This document shows positions 16,811 through 51,022 of a stretch of DNA of 64,000 nt, one piece after another; the first letter of the stretch is position 1, and the number at the start of each line of letters is the position of its first letter. The notes under the pieces are model-generated. The model was not told where the DNA came from and ran no database searches. It saw only the letters and a program-made list of their open reading frames with translations. The position numbers and the translations under genes are program-made. The stretch comes from Maritalea mediterranea. GTDB lineage: Bacteria > Pseudomonadota > Alphaproteobacteria > Rhizobiales > Devosiaceae. The stretch is taken from positions 124,001 through 188,000 of the forward strand of contig NZ_JAKGTI010000002.1 of the NCBI RefSeq assembly GCF_021568695.1. The letters are read 5' to 3'.

Positions 16811-17500
16811 ATGAAGTCTGCAGTGATTGTCTTCCCCGGCCTCAACCGCGACAGAGACATGATCGCCGCACTTGAAAAAGTGACGGGAGAAAAACCACAT
16901 CTAGCTTGGCACGGCGATAGCGACCTGCCAGACGTTGATTTGGTTGTGGTCCCCGGCGGTTTCTCCTATGGCGACTATTTGCGTGCTGGCGCCATTGCCG
17001 CGCGCTCGCCCATGCTGAAGCGGGTGAAGGAACATGCAGATCGCGGCGGGCTGACCTTGGGCGTGTGCAACGGCTTCCAAATCCTCACTGAAACAGGCCT
17101 CCTGCCCGGCGCATTGATGCGGAATCGGGATTTGAAGTTTTTGTGCAAAGTGATTCATTTAAAAGCAGAAAACACAACTTCACCGTTCACCTCAGCCTAT
17201 AAGGGCCACGAGGCATTCCCATGCCCCATCGCTCACCATGATGGCAATTATTTCATCGATCCGGACGGCCTGAAAGCCCTTGAAGACAACAACCAGATCG
17301 CTTTCCGCTATTGCGATGAAAACGGCAATGTCACCCTTGAAGCCAACCCGAATGGCTCCATTGAAAACATCGCCGGCATCACCAACAAGCAGGGCAATGT
17401 GTTGGGCATGATGCCCCACCCGGAAAACCTTATCGAAGCAGCTCATGGCGGCATTGAAGGCCGCTACATCTTTGACAGCCTAGTGGCAGCGGTGGCGTAA
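16811..17500 (+). CDS. purQ: FGAM synthase subunit PurQ (glutaminase)
   Basis: Class I glutamine amidotransferase that feeds ammonia to PurL. The 229-residue protein has the nucleophile Cys86 in GVCNGFQIL and the His203/Glu205 pair in [22 protein letters not shown] (about 48-63) is the family's signature. AAGGA precedes ATG 16811. It abuts purL with no gap (stop at 17498-17500, purL ATG at 17501), so the two are coupled. Confidence 0.96.
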
Positions 17501-19708
17501 ATGTTGAAAAATCAGAATATCGAAATCACCCCTGAATTGATCGCCAGCCATGGCCTCAATGAAGAAGAATACGCCAAAATCCTTGAGCTGATTGGCCGCG
17601 AACCCACTTACACTGAGTTGGGCATTTTCTCAGCCATGTGGAACGAGCACTGCTCTTACAAATCCTCAAAGAAATGGCTGAAAACCCTGCCAACAACAGG
17701 CGACCGTGTAATCCACGGGCCGGGCGAAAATGCGGGCGTTGTGGATATTGATGATGGCCAGGCCGTGGTGTTCAAAATGGAAAGCCACAACCACCCGTCA
17801 TACATTGAGCCTTATCAAGGCGCAGCCACAGGCGTTGGCGGCATTTTGCGTGATGTGTTCACCATGGGCGCCCGCCCGATCGCAGCGATGAACGCCCTAC
17901 GCTTTGGCGCACCCGATCACGAAAAAACCCGTCACCTTGTGTCGGGCGTTGTGGCTGGCGTTGGCGGCTATGGCAACTCCTTCGGCGTACCCACCGTTGG
18001 TGGCGAGGTTGAGTTCGACCCACGCTACAATGGCAACATCTTGGTCAATGCGTTCGCCGCGGGCCTTGCCGATGCCGATAAAATCTTCCTTTGCGCCGCC
18101 AAAGGTGTTGGCCTGCCCATCGTTTATCTTGGCGCCAAAACCGGACGCGATGGCGTTGGTGGCGCGACGATGGCGTCTGCCGAATTCGGCGATGACATTG
18201 ATGAAAAGCGCCCCACCGTACAGGTGGGTGACCCGTTCACCGAAAAATGCCTGCTCGAAGCCTGCTTGGAGCTGATGCAAACGGGTGCGGTGATCGCCAT
18301 TCAAGATATGGGTGCCGCTGGCCTCACCTGTTCTGCTGTGGAAATGGGCGCGCAAGGCAATCTCGGCGTTGAGCTTTATCTGGATGATGTCCCCACCCGC
18401 GAAGAAGCGATGACAGCCTATGAAATGATGTTGTCTGAAAGCCAAGAGCGCATGCTCATGGTGCTTGATCCTGAAAAAGAAGATGTGGCCAAGGCCATCT
18501 TCCACAAATGGGATCTCGACTTCGCCATCGTTGGCAAAACCACCGACGATCTGCGTTTCCGCGTGATCCATGAAGGCGCCGAAGTCGCCAACTTGCCGAT
18601 TAAAGATTTGGGCGACGAAGCCCCCGAATATGATCGGCCGCGTGCAGCCTATCCCGCCCCCTCAACACTTGGCGAAATCGACAGCAATATCGATATCGCC
18701 CAAGCGTTGCTGACTCTTGTGGGCAATGCAAACGGCGCGTCACGCCGCTGGGTTTGGGAGCAATATGATACGCTGATTCAAGGCAATTCTGTGCAAGTGC
18801 CGGGCGGTGACGCCGGTGTGGTGCGTGTGGAAGGGGCAGACGGCAAAAAAGCCCTCGCCTTCTCCGTCGACGTAACCCCACGCTATTGCGAAGCCAACCC
18901 GCGAGAAGGTGGCAAGCAGGCTGTCGCCGAATGCTGGCGCAACCTCTCTGCTGTTGGCGCACTGCCCTTGGCCGCAACTGACAATTTGAATTTCGGCAAT
19001 CCCGAAAAGCCAGAAATCATGGAGCAGTTCTCACAAGCCATTCTCGGCATTGGCGATGCCTGCCGCGCGCTTGAGTTCCCAATCGTCTCTGGCAACGTGT
19101 CGCTTTACAACGAAACCAACGGTATTGGCATTTTACCAACTCCAGCCATTGGCGGCGTTGGCCTGCTGAAAGACTGGGCAAAAATGATGACTCTTTCCTT
19201 CAAAGAAGAAGGCGAAGTGATTCTTTTGATTGGCGAAAAAGGCACCCACCTTGGCCAATCCGCCCTACTGCGCGATTGCTTCAACCGCATTGAAGGCGAT
19301 GCGCCAACGGTTGATCTGGAAAAAGAAGCCAAGCATGGCGCACTGATCCGTGATCTCATTGATCAGCAACAGCTCACCGCCTGCCACGATCTCTCGGATG
19401 GCGGCCTAGTGGTGGCATTGGCAGAGATGGCGATGAAGGGCAAAATCGGCGCGCAGCTAGAGCTTTCAAATGATCTGGGTGAATTGTTCGGTGAAGATCA
19501 AGCCCGCTATATCGTGACGGTAAAATCTGATAATCTTGAGTCGGTTCTGGCCGCTGCCAAGGTACAAAATGTGCCGGTGACCCAATTGGGCACCGTAGGT
19601 GGCGATAAGCTGGAAGCAAAAGATATATTTGCCGTATCGGTTGCGGAACTCAGCGATTTCCATGAAAGTTGGTTCCCAGACTATATGGCAGCAGAAGCGG
19701 CGCAATAG
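17501..19708 (+). CDS. purL: FGAM synthase subunit PurL (synthase)
   Basis: The 735-residue ATP-dependent synthase subunit, small-type PurL, which makes formylglycinamidine ribonucleotide from FGAR and ammonia. Key features: [11 protein letters not shown] (about 44-54), the ATP/metal-binding [23 protein letters not shown], the HDLSDGGL block near residue 630, and the two AIRS-type halves. It directly follows purQ, and bolA follows after a 24-base gap. Confidence 0.97.
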
Positions 19709-19732
19709 CCGCCTGATTGGAGATTGTTGTTT

Positions 19733-19963
19733 ATGTCTATTGGTACCGCTGAAATCGAACGTTTGATCACCGAAGCCATTCCCGGCGCAGAAGTGAATGC
19801 GGATACAGATGACGGCCATCACTATACCGCTGTTGTTGTGGCAGAAGCCTTCCGCGGCAAATCCCGCGTGCAACAGCACCAAATGGTCAATGCTGCACTG
19901 AAACAAGTGCTCGATAGCGGCGAACTTCACGCCCTTGCCCTGAAAACAAACGCACCGGAATAA
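19733..19963 (+). CDS. BolA family protein
   Basis: A 76-residue BolA-type protein with the class II KH-like fold. BolA proteins pair with monothiol CGFS glutaredoxins to carry or sense Fe-S clusters. The SVALKQ-like core here reads AFRGKSRVQQHQMVNAALK, and the helix ending in GELHALALKT is typical. I chose ATG 19733 because GGAGA (19719-19723) lies 9 bases upstream; an in-frame TTG at 19724 would add three residues. A glutaredoxin of the partner class lies at 22612, separated from bolA by a HAD-GNAT module. Confidence 0.9.
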   Translation: MSIGTAEIERLITEAIPGAEVNADTDDGHHYTAVVVAEAFRGKSRVQQHQMVNAALKQVLDSGELHALALKTNAPE

Positions 19964-19968
19964 TTCCG

Positions 19969-20595
19969 GTGCGGTCCATTCTTTTTGATGTGGATGGCGT
20001 GGTCATCCACTCCATTTTTCATCAAGACCCCGGGCGGATTCGCAGCTGGAAGCAGCACCTTCACATGGATTTCGGAATTGAAGTGGAAACCTTCAAATCC
20101 TTCTTCCGCGATCATTACAGTGGGGTCGTGACAGGCGAACGATCGATTGTTTCTGCCCTTGATGAATTTTTGCCAAGCATCGGCGCAGACCATATCAACA
20201 GCCTCGACCTGCTTGAATATTGGTTCAAAAACGACATGGCCATAAACCGTCAATTGCTCGACGGCATCAAAAAACTCAAGCAAAAAGCAGACGTCAAAAT
20301 CTACCTCGCCACCAATCAGGAGCACCTCCGCGCCTTTTATATGTGGCATGATTTAAAGCTCAGCCATATTTTCGATGATATGTTTTACGCCGCTCGCCTC
20401 GGCGTTGCGAAACCTGACCCATCCTTTTTCCAAAAAGTAGATCAACTGCTTGGTCCTCAAAGCGAGGCGCCACTATTTTTTGACGATGGCCAAAGAAACG
20501 TGGATGCTGGGAACCAGCAAGGCTGGGATTCGGCCCTGTTTGTCACTAAAAATGATTTTTTTGAGCACCCTTGGGTGAATAAATTTTTGAAATGA
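19969..20595 (+). CDS. HAD superfamily hydrolase
   Basis: A 208-residue haloacid-dehalogenase-like phosphatase. Motif I is FDVDG (nucleophile Asp7, Asp9), motif II Thr115 in LATNQ, motif III Lys148 in GVAKPDPSFF, motif IV Asp172-Asp173 in FFDDGQRNVDAGNQQG. The cap lies between residues 13 and 100. The only start available is GTG 19969, 5 bases after bolA. Its stop overlaps the next ATG (ATGA), coupling it to the GNAT gene. Its C-terminal 42 residues have a homologous relic at 21522-21665. Substrate unknown. Confidence 0.87.
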   Translation: MRSILFDVDGVVIHSIFHQDPGRIRSWKQHLHMDFGIEVETFKSFFRDHYSGVVTGERSIVSALDEFLPSIGADHINSLDLLEYWFKNDMAINRQLLDGIKKLKQKADVKIYLATNQEHLRAFYMWHDLKLSHIFDDMFYAARLGVAKPDPSFFQKVDQLLGPQSEAPLFFDDGQRNVDAGNQQGWDSALFVTKNDFFEHPWVNKFLK

Positions 20596-21509
20596 AACAT
20601 ACTTTATACCCCTGGGACCGCGGCTTTACTCTGCGATCCTGGCGTGAAGAAGATAGCCATGCAATGGCCGATCTGCACCGCCGGTCCATTTTTGCATCTG
20701 GTGAGGACCATTACACCAAAGAGCAACAAGAGAGTTGGGCCCACGGCTTAACTGCAAATGGCTATACAGAATGCGCAAAAGATGGCGAAGTCTACATAGT
20801 CGCCGTCGACGAGACTGACACCCCTATCGCCTTTTGCGGCTACAAGAATAGTGAGATATGCGGCCTCTATGTCGATCCGGCACACCAGGGCCGAGATATC
20901 GGACGGCGACTTTTGTTTCGCGCGTTTATAAATATTTCTCAAATAAAACCAGATAAAATCACTCTGTCGGCAAGCGCTCCGGCCAAAACATTTTATGAGA
21001 AATATGGATACAAATCAGTTGGCGAACGCACCTACAAAACCCGTGGCGGCATTGGCATAAATGTCTACGACATGGAAACTGACCAAATTAAATATTCCGA
21101 TCAATTGGGTCCACACAATGGTCGCGAACTTTCATTAATGCTGGCAGGGCAAAAACGGGTGGCATTTTTTGACGAGCTCAATCCGGTTGAGGCTTTCGAA
21201 CCTCACATAAGTGAAGGTAAAATTTGCTGCCACAACTTTCCGGAAATTTCGCAAGACCTTTATGACCTCATCAAAATTCGTGAATCACAACTGATGTCAT
21301 TCGACACCGCCGCTCTTTACTATTTGCCCGGCGAAGAAGCGCGCATGTTAGAGCTAAAAGCTGCCCTACTCGAACTAACCCAAAGAAATACCCGAGAGCG
21401 GTTTTTCCAATTACACCGCCGCGTTGGCAAACTCTTGGATTATCCCGACGAAGCGATTAATTATTACATTGAACGGCGACGGCAACGACTGGAAGAAAAA
21501 CATGGGTAA
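20592..21509 (+). CDS. Two-domain GNAT acetyltransferase, copy 1
   Basis: A 305-residue protein. The first ~165 residues are a GNAT acetyltransferase domain with the acetyl-CoA loop in GLYVDPAHQGRDIGRRLL (about 93-110) and the ASAPAKTFYEKYGYKSVG block. The last ~130 residues form a domain I do not recognise, opening GRELSLMLAGQKRVAFF and containing ALYYLPGEEARM and GKLLDYPDEAINYYIER. Copy 2 at 21632 has the same architecture. It is coupled to the HAD gene by ATGA, so the pair is expected to act together, perhaps on a phosphorylated, acetylated small molecule. This role is a guess. Confidence 0.87.
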   Translation: MKHTLYPWDRGFTLRSWREEDSHAMADLHRRSIFASGEDHYTKEQQESWAHGLTANGYTECAKDGEVYIVAVDETDTPIAFCGYKNSEICGLYVDPAHQGRDIGRRLLFRAFINISQIKPDKITLSASAPAKTFYEKYGYKSVGERTYKTRGGIGINVYDMETDQIKYSDQLGPHNGRELSLMLAGQKRVAFFDELNPVEAFEPHISEGKICCHNFPEISQDLYDLIKIRESQLMSFDTAALYYLPGEEARMLELKAALLELTQRNTRERFFQLHRRVGKLLDYPDEAINYYIERRRQRLEEKHG

Positions 21510-21521
21510 GCTGCACAATCG

Positions 21522-21665
21522 ATGCCAGCCCCATTATCCTTTGACGCTGGGCAAAAAAAAGTAGATGCTGAACAGACGCGAGGGCGACAAGCTGCTGCAA
21601 AATTTGAAAGAGAAGATTTTTTCGAGCGCCTATGGGTGAAAAACCAATTGGAGCCACAAAGGTAA
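21522..21665 (+). pseudogene. Relic of a second HAD gene (C-terminal end only)
   Basis: A 47-codon open stretch between the two GNAT genes. From its third residue it aligns without gaps to the last 42 residues of the HAD protein at 19969-20595, with 19 identities by my count. Shared blocks are APL-F-D, VDA, DFFE and WV; the motif IV Asp173 is Ala here. Nothing equivalent to the first 165 residues remains. It overlaps the start of the copy 2 GNAT gene by 34 bases. It most likely remains from duplication of the HAD-GNAT pair followed by loss of most of the second HAD gene. Confidence 0.75.
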
Positions 21666-22516
21666 AAATCGTCCCCATCGCCGATGAGCATTGGGACCAA
21701 CTCCCTGACATTCACAGGGCGGCCATTCTGGCTGTGCCGAACAAGTTTCATGATCGTACCGCCCGCGAAAGCTGGGCACATGGCCTCATTCCCGAAGGCT
21801 ATAAACAGTCTGCACAGGATGGCGAGGTCTTTTTTGTGGCCTTAGATGAAAACGATTGCCCGATCGGCTTTAGCGGCCACCGCGGCTATGAAATGACTGC
21901 GCTGTTCGTTGCGCCCGAGCATCAGCACAAAGGCGTTGCCACAGCGCTTTATAACCGCACGATCAGCGAAATATTAAAGGGCCGCCCGGAAAAGATCGTC
22001 CTCACCTCATCCCATCCGGCCCTCGGTTTTTATGAGAAACAGGGCTTTATTGCCGTGCAAGAACGCGAAGAGATCACACGCGGCGGCGCGTTCATCCTTG
22101 TGTTCGATATGGAAGCGCCAGTCAATCGCCCGCCCCATGAGGGCCGCGAACTTGATTTGATGCTGGGTGGACGCAAAAAAATCGCTTATTTCGGCGACAA
22201 TGATCCAGAAGAGACTTTCCGTCCATATGTGATCTCCGAACAGATCAAGCGCTATGTCTGGCAGGAACGTGCCGACTATTTGCAGCAATTGTTCAAGGAA
22301 AGCGGCCAATTGGACATCGTGCCCGTGGCTCCCGTGATCTATTATCTGCCACAATATGAAGCAGAAAAAGACCGGCTCGTCACCCTTTTGCGCAAGCATA
22401 TGATTGAAGGTGAGCATGATCTGCGCGAGGAGTTGGAAATGAGCGAGTTGCTCGGCTATCCCTCCTATGCGGTCAAGGCCTTCCTCGAGCGCATGCGCGC
22501 CATGCGACAAAATTGA
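21632..22516 (+). CDS. Two-domain GNAT acetyltransferase, copy 2
   Basis: A 294-residue paralogue of the protein at 20592-21509. The GNAT domain (about residues 10-160) has ALFVAPEHQHKGVATALYNR as its acetyl-CoA loop and shares ESWAHGL, DGEV and FYEKQGF with copy 1. The C-terminal domain shares GREL-LML-G-K-A-F, YYLP and ELLGYPSYAVKAFLER. ATG 21632 lies inside the HAD relic. The divergence is substantial, so the duplication is old and both copies appear intact. Substrate unknown. Confidence 0.87.
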   Translation: MGEKPIGATKVKIVPIADEHWDQLPDIHRAAILAVPNKFHDRTARESWAHGLIPEGYKQSAQDGEVFFVALDENDCPIGFSGHRGYEMTALFVAPEHQHKGVATALYNRTISEILKGRPEKIVLTSSHPALGFYEKQGFIAVQEREEITRGGAFILVFDMEAPVNRPPHEGRELDLMLGGRKKIAYFGDNDPEETFRPYVISEQIKRYVWQERADYLQQLFKESGQLDIVPVAPVIYYLPQYEAEKDRLVTLLRKHMIEGEHDLREELEMSELLGYPSYAVKAFLERMRAMRQN

Positions 22517-22611
22517 TGAGCATCATCCTCGACATTTAGGTCTGTCTATCCTATTTAGGGCCTAATTGGTCACCTTGTCGGGCCTTAACCCCGAATATAA
22601 AGGAAAGCATT

Positions 22612-22947
22612 ATGAGCGACATCAACGCATTTATCGACGAACAAGTAAAAAACAATGACGTGTTTCTGTTTATGAAAGGCACGCCGGATTTCCCCCAGTG
22701 CGGTTTCTCCGGCCAAGTGGCTCAGATCTTGAACTATCTTGAAGTCGAATATGCCAGCGCCAATGTGCTGGAAAGCAACGAGCTGCGCGAAGGCATCAAG
22801 CAATATTCAAACTGGCCCACCATTCCCCAGCTTTATGTGAAGGGCGAATTTGTTGGCGGTTGCGACATTATCCGCGAGATGGCGCAAGAAGGCGAATTGC
22901 AGCAGCTTTTTGCTGATAAAGGCATCAAAGCCAAACAGGCCAGCTAA
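22612..22947 (+). CDS. grxD: Monothiol glutaredoxin, Grx4 family
   Basis: A 111-residue CGFS-type glutaredoxin that binds a glutathione-ligated [2Fe-2S] cluster and hands clusters on, usually with a BolA partner. The active site is PQCGFSG (Cys30). KGTPDFPQCGFS, WPTIPQLYVKGEFVGGCDI and the C-terminal helix are typical. AGGAAAG precedes ATG 22612. bolA and grxD are often adjacent in alphaproteobacteria; here about 2.6 kb of HAD and GNAT genes separate them. Its stop overlaps the next start by one base. Confidence 0.95.
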   Translation: MSDINAFIDEQVKNNDVFLFMKGTPDFPQCGFSGQVAQILNYLEVEYASANVLESNELREGIKQYSNWPTIPQLYVKGEFVGGCDIIREMAQEGELQQLFADKGIKAKQAS

Positions 22948-23408
22948 TGACCCGCATTTGGAACGTCTATCTTTCTGGCGAAATCCACACCGATTGGCGC
23001 GAGGAAATCGAAAAGGGCTGTGAAGCTGCAGGCTTGCCGGTCGAATTTTCCGCACCCGTCACCGATCATGGCGCGTCCGATGATTGCGGCGTCGCCATTA
23101 TGGGCGAAGAGCCAAACAAGTTCTGGCACGACCATAAGGGCGCCAAGTTGAACGCCATCCGCACCCGCACCCTCTTGGGCGAAGCCGACATTGTGGTGGT
23201 GCGTTTTGGCGACAAATATAAGCAGTGGAACGCCGCTTTCGACGCCGGATTCGCTGCGGCCCTTGGCTTACCATTGATCGTGATGCATGGCGCTGACCAT
23301 CAACACGCGCTCAAGGAAGTGGATGCCTCAGCCCTCGCGGTGATCGAAACACCGGAGCAGGTGGTGCACATCCTTGAATATGTGATCAACGGTAAACTGC
23401 CCGGATAG
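22947..23408 (+). CDS. YtoQ family protein
   Basis: A 153-residue cytosolic protein of the YtoQ family (nucleoside 2-deoxyribosyltransferase-like fold), function unknown. The opening WNVYLSGEIHTDWREEI and the DCGVAIMGEEPNKFWHDHKGAKLNAIRTRTLL block are family hallmarks. It overlaps the grxD stop by one base (TAATG), so it is in the same transcript. A hairpin follows 10 bases after its stop. Confidence 0.88.
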   Translation: MTRIWNVYLSGEIHTDWREEIEKGCEAAGLPVEFSAPVTDHGASDDCGVAIMGEEPNKFWHDHKGAKLNAIRTRTLLGEADIVVVRFGDKYKQWNAAFDAGFAAALGLPLIVMHGADHQHALKEVDASALAVIETPEQVVHILEYVINGKLPG

Positions 23409-32086: not shown

Positions 32087-32126
32087 TTGCATCTCCCATT
32101 TAGTGTGTTACAACTCTAATACACTA
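32087..32126 (+). promoter_or_regulatory. Promoter and operator of the GntR-ABC operon
   Basis: A candidate -35 TTGCAT (32087-32092) and -10 TACAAC (32109-32114) are covered by the inverted repeat TAGTGT (32101-32106) / ACACTA (32121-32126) with 14 bases between. The repeat ends 15 bases before the gntR ATG. An operator over the promoter is what is expected for an autorepressing YtrA-type regulator. Confidence 0.6.
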
Positions 32127-32141
32127 GATGAGTGAGACACA

Positions 32142-50763: not shown

Positions 50764-50833
50764 ATGCCCTCTCCTTATTCCAAAGTCCAAGGGCCCTTGC
50801 AAATTTATTCGGACCCGGGGTGATATATAATTT

Positions 50834-50848
50834 GTACTATATTTGTTC
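50834..50848 (-). promoter_or_regulatory. Candidate SOS (LexA) box upstream of recA
   Basis: GTAC-TATATTT-GTTC (50834-50848) fits the alphaproteobacterial GTTC-N7-GTTC pattern with one mismatch, about 70 bases upstream of the recA start. A second one-mismatch version, GTTC-N7-GATC, is at 50911-50925. Nothing else is evident in the gap 50764-51022. Confidence 0.4.
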
Positions 50849-51022
50849 TCATATTTTCACCCATATGTCAATCCAAATAAACATCTGAAATATATGCGAA
50901 ATTTAAATTTGTTCTTTTTTTGATCCAAAACACATGCAAATTAACCAAGTTCAGCGTCCTGTCCCCGCGCAACTTAGGATTGTCACGCCAAGGGGCCAGT
51001 TGAAGAGAATCAGGCGCGTCGC

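Follow-up and report, generated by a model that had tools for sequence, protein, structure and literature searches.

A remnant of a second HAD hydrolase gene between two paralogous acetyltransferase genes in Maritalea, and a candidate control element within it

The window analysed here is a stretch of 64,000 nucleotides from Maritalea mediterranea, and all coordinates refer to it unless another sequence is named. Between a gene that we name bolA-like and a gene that we name monothiol glutaredoxin (grx)-like, both from their sequences, it carries a HAD-family hydrolase gene (HAD), two paralogous GNAT acetyltransferase genes (GNAT1 and GNAT2) and a short open frame. All lie on the same strand, in the following order:

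19724..19963, plus strand: bolA-like gene, bounding the slot on the left (tblastn synteny)
19969..20595, plus strand: HAD-IA family hydrolase, complete, 208 residues, GTG start (Pfam, TIGR01509, invariant residues)
20592..21509, plus strand: GNAT1, a GNAT domain and a C-terminal domain, with an ATGA overlap with HAD (Pfam Acetyltransf_10, sequence, model)
21522..21665, plus strand: 47-codon open frame over a remnant of a second HAD C-terminus, from motif IV onward (homology)
21540..21570, plus strand: conserved block TTTGACG-N4-GCAAAAAAA-N2-TAGATGCTG inside the remnant, a candidate cis-element for GNAT2 (conservation; weak promoter matrix score)
21632..21634, plus strand: predicted start codon of GNAT2, inside the HAD remnant (sequence)
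21632..22516, plus strand: GNAT2, paralogue of GNAT1, a GNAT domain and a C-terminal domain (Pfam Acetyltransf_10)
22612..22947, plus strand: monothiol glutaredoxin (grx)-like gene, bounding the slot on the right (tblastn synteny)

An earlier note on this DNA had placed HAD, GNAT1, the 47-codon frame and GNAT2 at coordinates that were all borne out, and the ATGA coupling that it described is present, GNAT1 starting at 20592 and HAD ending at 20595. A 10-pair hairpin (19951-19973) spans the bolA stop and the HAD GTG start.

The HAD protein scores above the cut-offs of PF00702 (Hydrolase; 44.1 bits, cut-off 26.4, E 4e-11) and TIGR01509 (46.7 bits, cut-off 29.4), which it shares with HAD-IA hydrolases, but falls below the equivalog cut-off of YihX-type glucose-1-phosphatases (NF006991, 37.5 of 295 bits), although YihX (8pno) is its best solved relative by sequence (E 1.1e-5, residues 85-195). 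Motifs I to IV are all present: D7, D9, T115, K148, D172 and D173 are invariant in the six Maritalea HADs, and we take D7/D9, T115, K148 and D172/D173 to have the roles of the DxD, T/S, K and DD motifs. Both GNATs match Acetyltransf_10 above its cut-off of 23.6 bits (GNAT1 58.8 bits, E 7.2e-16; GNAT2 55.3 bits, E 8.8e-15) and are 39% identical to each other in the search alignment. Judging from their families, HAD and the GNATs are most likely a small-molecule phosphatase and acetyltransferases.

The description of the GNATs as two-domain proteins holds in the sense that one GNAT domain (model residues 7-170) is followed by a C-terminal domain without a Pfam match over the cut-off. The fold was modelled for GNAT1 only: residues 7-165 adopt the GNAT fold (2fiw, Z 21.8, rmsd 2.5, 156 aligned), and structure matches of the full model cover mainly residues 7-170 and say nothing on the C-terminal domain. 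GNAT1 thus shares its fold with 2fiw and the Acetyltransf_10 acetyltransferases and adds a domain of about 130 residues. This domain (21099-21506 in GNAT1, 22124-22513 in GNAT2) is also matched in 6 of 384 other genomes of the class (L172-L177), in four of the six as an ORF of its own (128-150 residues) and in one within a 207-residue ORF. The four tested gave no Pfam or NCBIfam match over the cut-off; in two, 21-27 residues close to the C-terminus matched NF033830 (NleE-type) below the threshold (E 0.003 and 0.02). Foldseek with the model of the domain returned no match at E <= 0.001, the best being an NleE entry (E 0.043). An assignment to DUF483 was rejected, as the match is below the cut-off in three of four domains (E 0.003 to 0.11).

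An ungapped alignment pairs the 47-codon frame with HAD residues 167-208, 19 of 42 positions being identical, at a Smith-Waterman score of 89 (BLOSUM62); none of 5000 shuffled versions reached this score (mean 24.2, maximum 54). Of all 533 window ORFs between 30 and 80 codons long, it matches HAD best, the runner-up scoring 39. A HAD search of the genome itself recovers the remnant (E 9.7e-5), and tblastn with the 47-codon frame finds the HAD C-termini in all five other genomes of the genus (E 2e-6 to 5e-9). The homology claimed in the earlier note is therefore upheld, including the lack of HAD sequence before motif IV: the frame begins just 5' of this motif, whose DD pair reads DA, and the motif IV region is the only one of the four that it contains. 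Alone, the 47 residues were assigned to no family by Pfam or NCBIfam. With homology, truncation and the frame damage seen in relatives, the stretch qualifies as a HAD pseudogene. On this comparison it is a remnant of a second HAD C-terminus between the GNAT genes, as had been correctly seen.

HAD, GNAT1 and GNAT2 served as queries against 61 genomes, those of 60 relatives and the own genome (G000). The own genome groups with Maritalea records, and six of the genomes belong to this genus: G001 is taken as M. myrionectae, G002 as M. porphyrae strain G21631-S1, G003 as M. porphyrae NBRC 107169 and G004 as an uncultured Maritalea bin, and G005 corresponds to M. mobilis or lies very close to it. 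Briefly, the order is HAD-GNAT1-remnant-GNAT2 in G000 and HAD-remnant-GNAT2-GNAT1 in G003. G005 has the order of G000, but of its GNAT1 only about the initial codons and the final 50 residues persist; the C-terminal piece of about 50 residues (L084, 6575-6724) indicates that here decay has reached the GNAT partner as well. G001 lacks GNAT1, and an ATGA links its complete HAD to GNAT2, the same junction as between HAD and GNAT1 in G000, G002 and G004. G002 contains HAD-GNAT1 only, and G004 contains HAD-GNAT1 in a genome that is 83% complete, with a contig end inside GNAT1. HAD-tail remnants consequently lie just 5' of GNAT2 in three of the six genomes (G000, G005 and G003), and in each of the four genomes in which GNAT2 was found it directly follows a HAD tail, either complete or reduced to a remnant.

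The remnants of the relatives are damaged in different ways. That of G003 has an in-frame stop inside the conserved block, and that of G005 has an in-frame stop six codons 5' of the block and one-base and two-base gaps that jointly keep the frame; in G005 the HAD frame runs open for 43 codons and ends in a TGA overlapping the GNAT2 ATG. The event proposed in the earlier note is not specific to this genome, because the remnant is common to three species: it is old and shared, not the product of a recent loss in M. mediterranea.

The conserved block (about 31 nt) corresponds to the old HAD motif IV codons, and its pattern is found in the remnants of G000, G005 and G003 and in the intact HAD of G001. 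Aligned, the three remnants are identical in 51 of 119 columns, and 27 of these fall within a single stretch of 35 columns (best-window permutation p 0.0002), while no clustering of conserved columns was found in six pairs of intact HADs (p 0.13-0.36). Compared with G003, the spacer holding the remnant reaches 30/35 identities; counting this spacer, two of the 29 intergenic regions attain that value, the median being 23, and shuffles gave 25/35 at most. Synonymous divergence from G003 is high across the window (median pS 0.75), that of GNAT2 being near saturation (pS 0.88). With G005 the identity (31/35) is typical of intergenic regions at that distance (median 32), so the case for a cis-element depends on G003 and on the clustering of identical columns. 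This comparison used only gaps longer than 45 nt, long ones being cut to 400 nt, with gene borders from our own choice of ORFs. Part of the likeness is inherited, because the block derives from HAD codons, and two of the 11 outgroup HADs that lack a GNAT agree with it at 22 of the 25 fixed positions; for the four sequences from which the consensus was drawn, counts against it are circular.

The block starts 92-116 nt 5' of the GNAT2 ATGs considered, and with up to three mismatches it has no other copy in the genome than the remnant and HAD itself. We propose that it is a candidate cis-acting control element for GNAT2. A sigma-70 promoter with -35 and -10 boxes 16-18 nt apart is not supported: TTGACG is present, but the -10 is weak. 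With a matrix built from 30 of 36 tRNA upstream regions, the block scores 4.1, in the top 1.4% of window positions, and a consensus promoter scan did not list it. A housekeeping promoter in the block found no support, as nothing special appeared among 107 intergenic TTGAC sites (about 464 kb) or in the tRNA-matrix score; some other sigma factor or a regulator may act there. A search of 19700-23000 against Rfam gave only a sub-threshold match to SNORD93 (E 0.71). Two other intergenic stretches of the window are strongly conserved to G003, at 32098-32141 (30/35) and at 50831-50870 (29/35), the latter presumably resembling a LexA-type operator.

The remnant of the own genome also bears on translation. 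Positions 21656-21658, which read ATG in G005, G001 and G003, are ACA in the window, and 21632 is the only in-frame ATG, GTG or TTG before GNAT2 residue 35, with a stop nine codons upstream. As 21632 is the sole in-frame start there, the remnant supplies the start and the first eight codons of GNAT2, out of the old HAD frame; read from the DNA itself, the predicted GNAT2 start codon has been captured from the HAD remnant in this genome. The broader proposal is that the HAD motif IV codons double as a cis-element of GNAT2, that selection on this element and not on the protein kept the block in three species, and that the remnant was captured as the GNAT2 start region in one of them; we regard it as plausible, at somewhat less than an even chance.

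The earlier note had explained the locus by a HAD-GNAT-HAD-GNAT array followed by loss of most of the second HAD. The two units are indeed supported, but neither the full array nor a second complete HAD was found in the six genomes of the genus (the assembly of G004, at 83% completeness, breaks off within the locus). Duplication of HAD and GNAT as a unit is favoured because both units have the ATGA junction, and in G005 the TGA/ATG overlap is kept; together with the remnants before GNAT2 in three of six genomes and the ATGA-joined complete HAD-GNAT2 of G001, this makes a unit duplication within Maritalea likely and well supported. The complete second HAD in a relative that had been expected as confirmation has a counterpart in G001, where a complete HAD precedes GNAT2. 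It is not conclusive, because recombination between the HAD tails of a G000-like array also produces this state. Likewise, the simple order of duplication and loss fits G000, but the order of G003 needs an extra rearrangement or exchange.

We lean towards a scenario, evenly balanced in our judgement, in which a complete second HAD was later lost and its tail kept for sequence needed by GNAT2. An ancestor within Maritalea would have duplicated HAD and its ATGA-coupled GNAT as a unit, giving HAD-GNAT1 and HAD-GNAT2; in the GNAT2 lineage of G000, G005 and G003 the second HAD would then have lost its first four fifths. Its tail would have been retained because GNAT2 needed a sequence in it, namely the block that begins 92-116 nt before the GNAT2 start, which would most likely be a transcriptional control site; in the own genome the tail would additionally carry the GNAT2 start codon, as read above. 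In the GNAT2 tree, G001 falls outside the remnant-bearing GNAT2s (93/86), a position that favours the complete HAD-GNAT2 as the older state, although its difference from the species grouping is not significant (AU p 0.068).

The second HAD may instead have been copied already truncated, since recombination between two HAD tails could regenerate the arrangement of G001. The copied segment would have run from about codon 165 of HAD through GNAT, so that the second HAD was never complete, and G001 would have lost GNAT1 by HAD-tail recombination, rejoining its complete HAD to GNAT2. This takes one step fewer than loss of a complete gene. Only 30 nt in G000 and 33 nt in G005 separate the GNAT1 stop from the block, with no room for more HAD, and the 86-nt spacer of G003 has no clear HAD likeness (25 of 300 shuffles were as good against the G001 HAD, and 281 of 300 against the G003 HAD). 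The position of G001 in the GNAT2 tree speaks against it, with the reservation just given, and codons of about 21-70 of the G001 HAD are equally far from the HADs of G000 and G002, which a simple deletion does not give. We consider it rather unlikely, and a poorer account than loss of a complete gene. An origin of the G003 spacer as a leftover of GNAT1 or HAD was rejected, no match to six targets being usefully better than shuffles.

Less probable again is an exchange, in which different Maritalea lineages had either HAD-GNAT1 or HAD-GNAT2 in the bolA-grx slot and homologous recombination then placed the two side by side, with a HAD tail left where they meet. It would suit the presence of HAD-GNAT1 only in G002 and of HAD-GNAT2 only in G001, as well as the order of G003, where the spacer between GNAT1 and grx looks, on visual inspection, like its G002 counterpart. 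The HAD tree places the G003 HAD with those of G000, G005 and G001 (97/97), but species groupings are not rejected (AU p 0.146 and 0.388). Similarly, the differences between the G001 and G000 HADs are clustered (0 of 2000 permutations), but so are those of purL, and a triplet max-chi-square test for a mosaic G001 HAD is not significant (p 0.20). Finally, it is very improbable that the 47-codon frame encodes a small protein that is made, or serves as a leader translationally coupled to GNAT2: the frame is open in G000, and in G005 for the 43 codons up to the TGA that overlaps the GNAT2 start, but the in-frame stops of G003 and G005 described above interrupt it, and pN between the remnant of the window and six HAD tails (0.33-0.39) exceeds that among intact HAD tails (0.13-0.28).

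The duplication had also been taken to support a joint function of HAD and GNAT. This argument is limited, because HAD is kept between bolA and grx without a detected GNAT outside the genus. Thirteen non-genus loci were read (tblastn, E 1e-3), 12 of them chosen for holding HAD, in a set that leaves out HAD matches in G011, G013, G022, G027, G044, G054 and G057 and second matches in G021 and G030. In 11 of the 13, bolA, HAD and grx follow in this order and no GNAT was detected, some gaps of several hundred bases being unread; in G058, HAD occurs with neither bolA nor grx detected within 10 kb. Among the loci read, the HAD-GNAT pairing is seen only in Maritalea. A joint function is thus weakly supported, and HAD is an independent and probably older occupant of the slot. 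In G031, from another genus of the family, a single-domain GNAT lies between bolA and grx without HAD (L100, 5567-6001).

Tandem duplication followed by pseudogene decay is a general phenomenon in operons, and the paralogous GNATs, the truncated HAD copy between them and the gene content varying among species conform to it. The locus differs in that a block of the truncated copy is conserved in three species and that the remnant provides a downstream start codon in one; these two features are unexpected, the rest being ordinary duplication and decay. In the literature listings and opening parts of abstracts consulted, we came across no account of this locus, an absence that carries little weight. 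A single genus here allows a gene pair to be compared in complete, truncated and absent states. If the block is a control element, it would be a coding sequence that turned regulatory and outlived its protein; otherwise the case is one of routine duplication and decay.

A divergence profile along the window was computed from 57 to 65 genes per relative. A recombination hot spot at HAD-GNAT2, first read from a GNAT2 dS to G005 of 1.48 versus 0.40 for purL, was set aside, as the pS of GNAT2 (0.65 to G005, 0.63 to G001) is near the median of 0.59 and the genes that stand out are purQ, purL and bolA. The pN of GNAT2 is high, at 0.147 (G005) and 0.210 (G001) versus medians of 0.052 and 0.048. Upstream of the locus, purQ, purL and bolA (16811-19963) have pS values to G005 and G001 of 0.11-0.31 versus the window median of 0.59, which suggests recent exchange or strong codon constraint.
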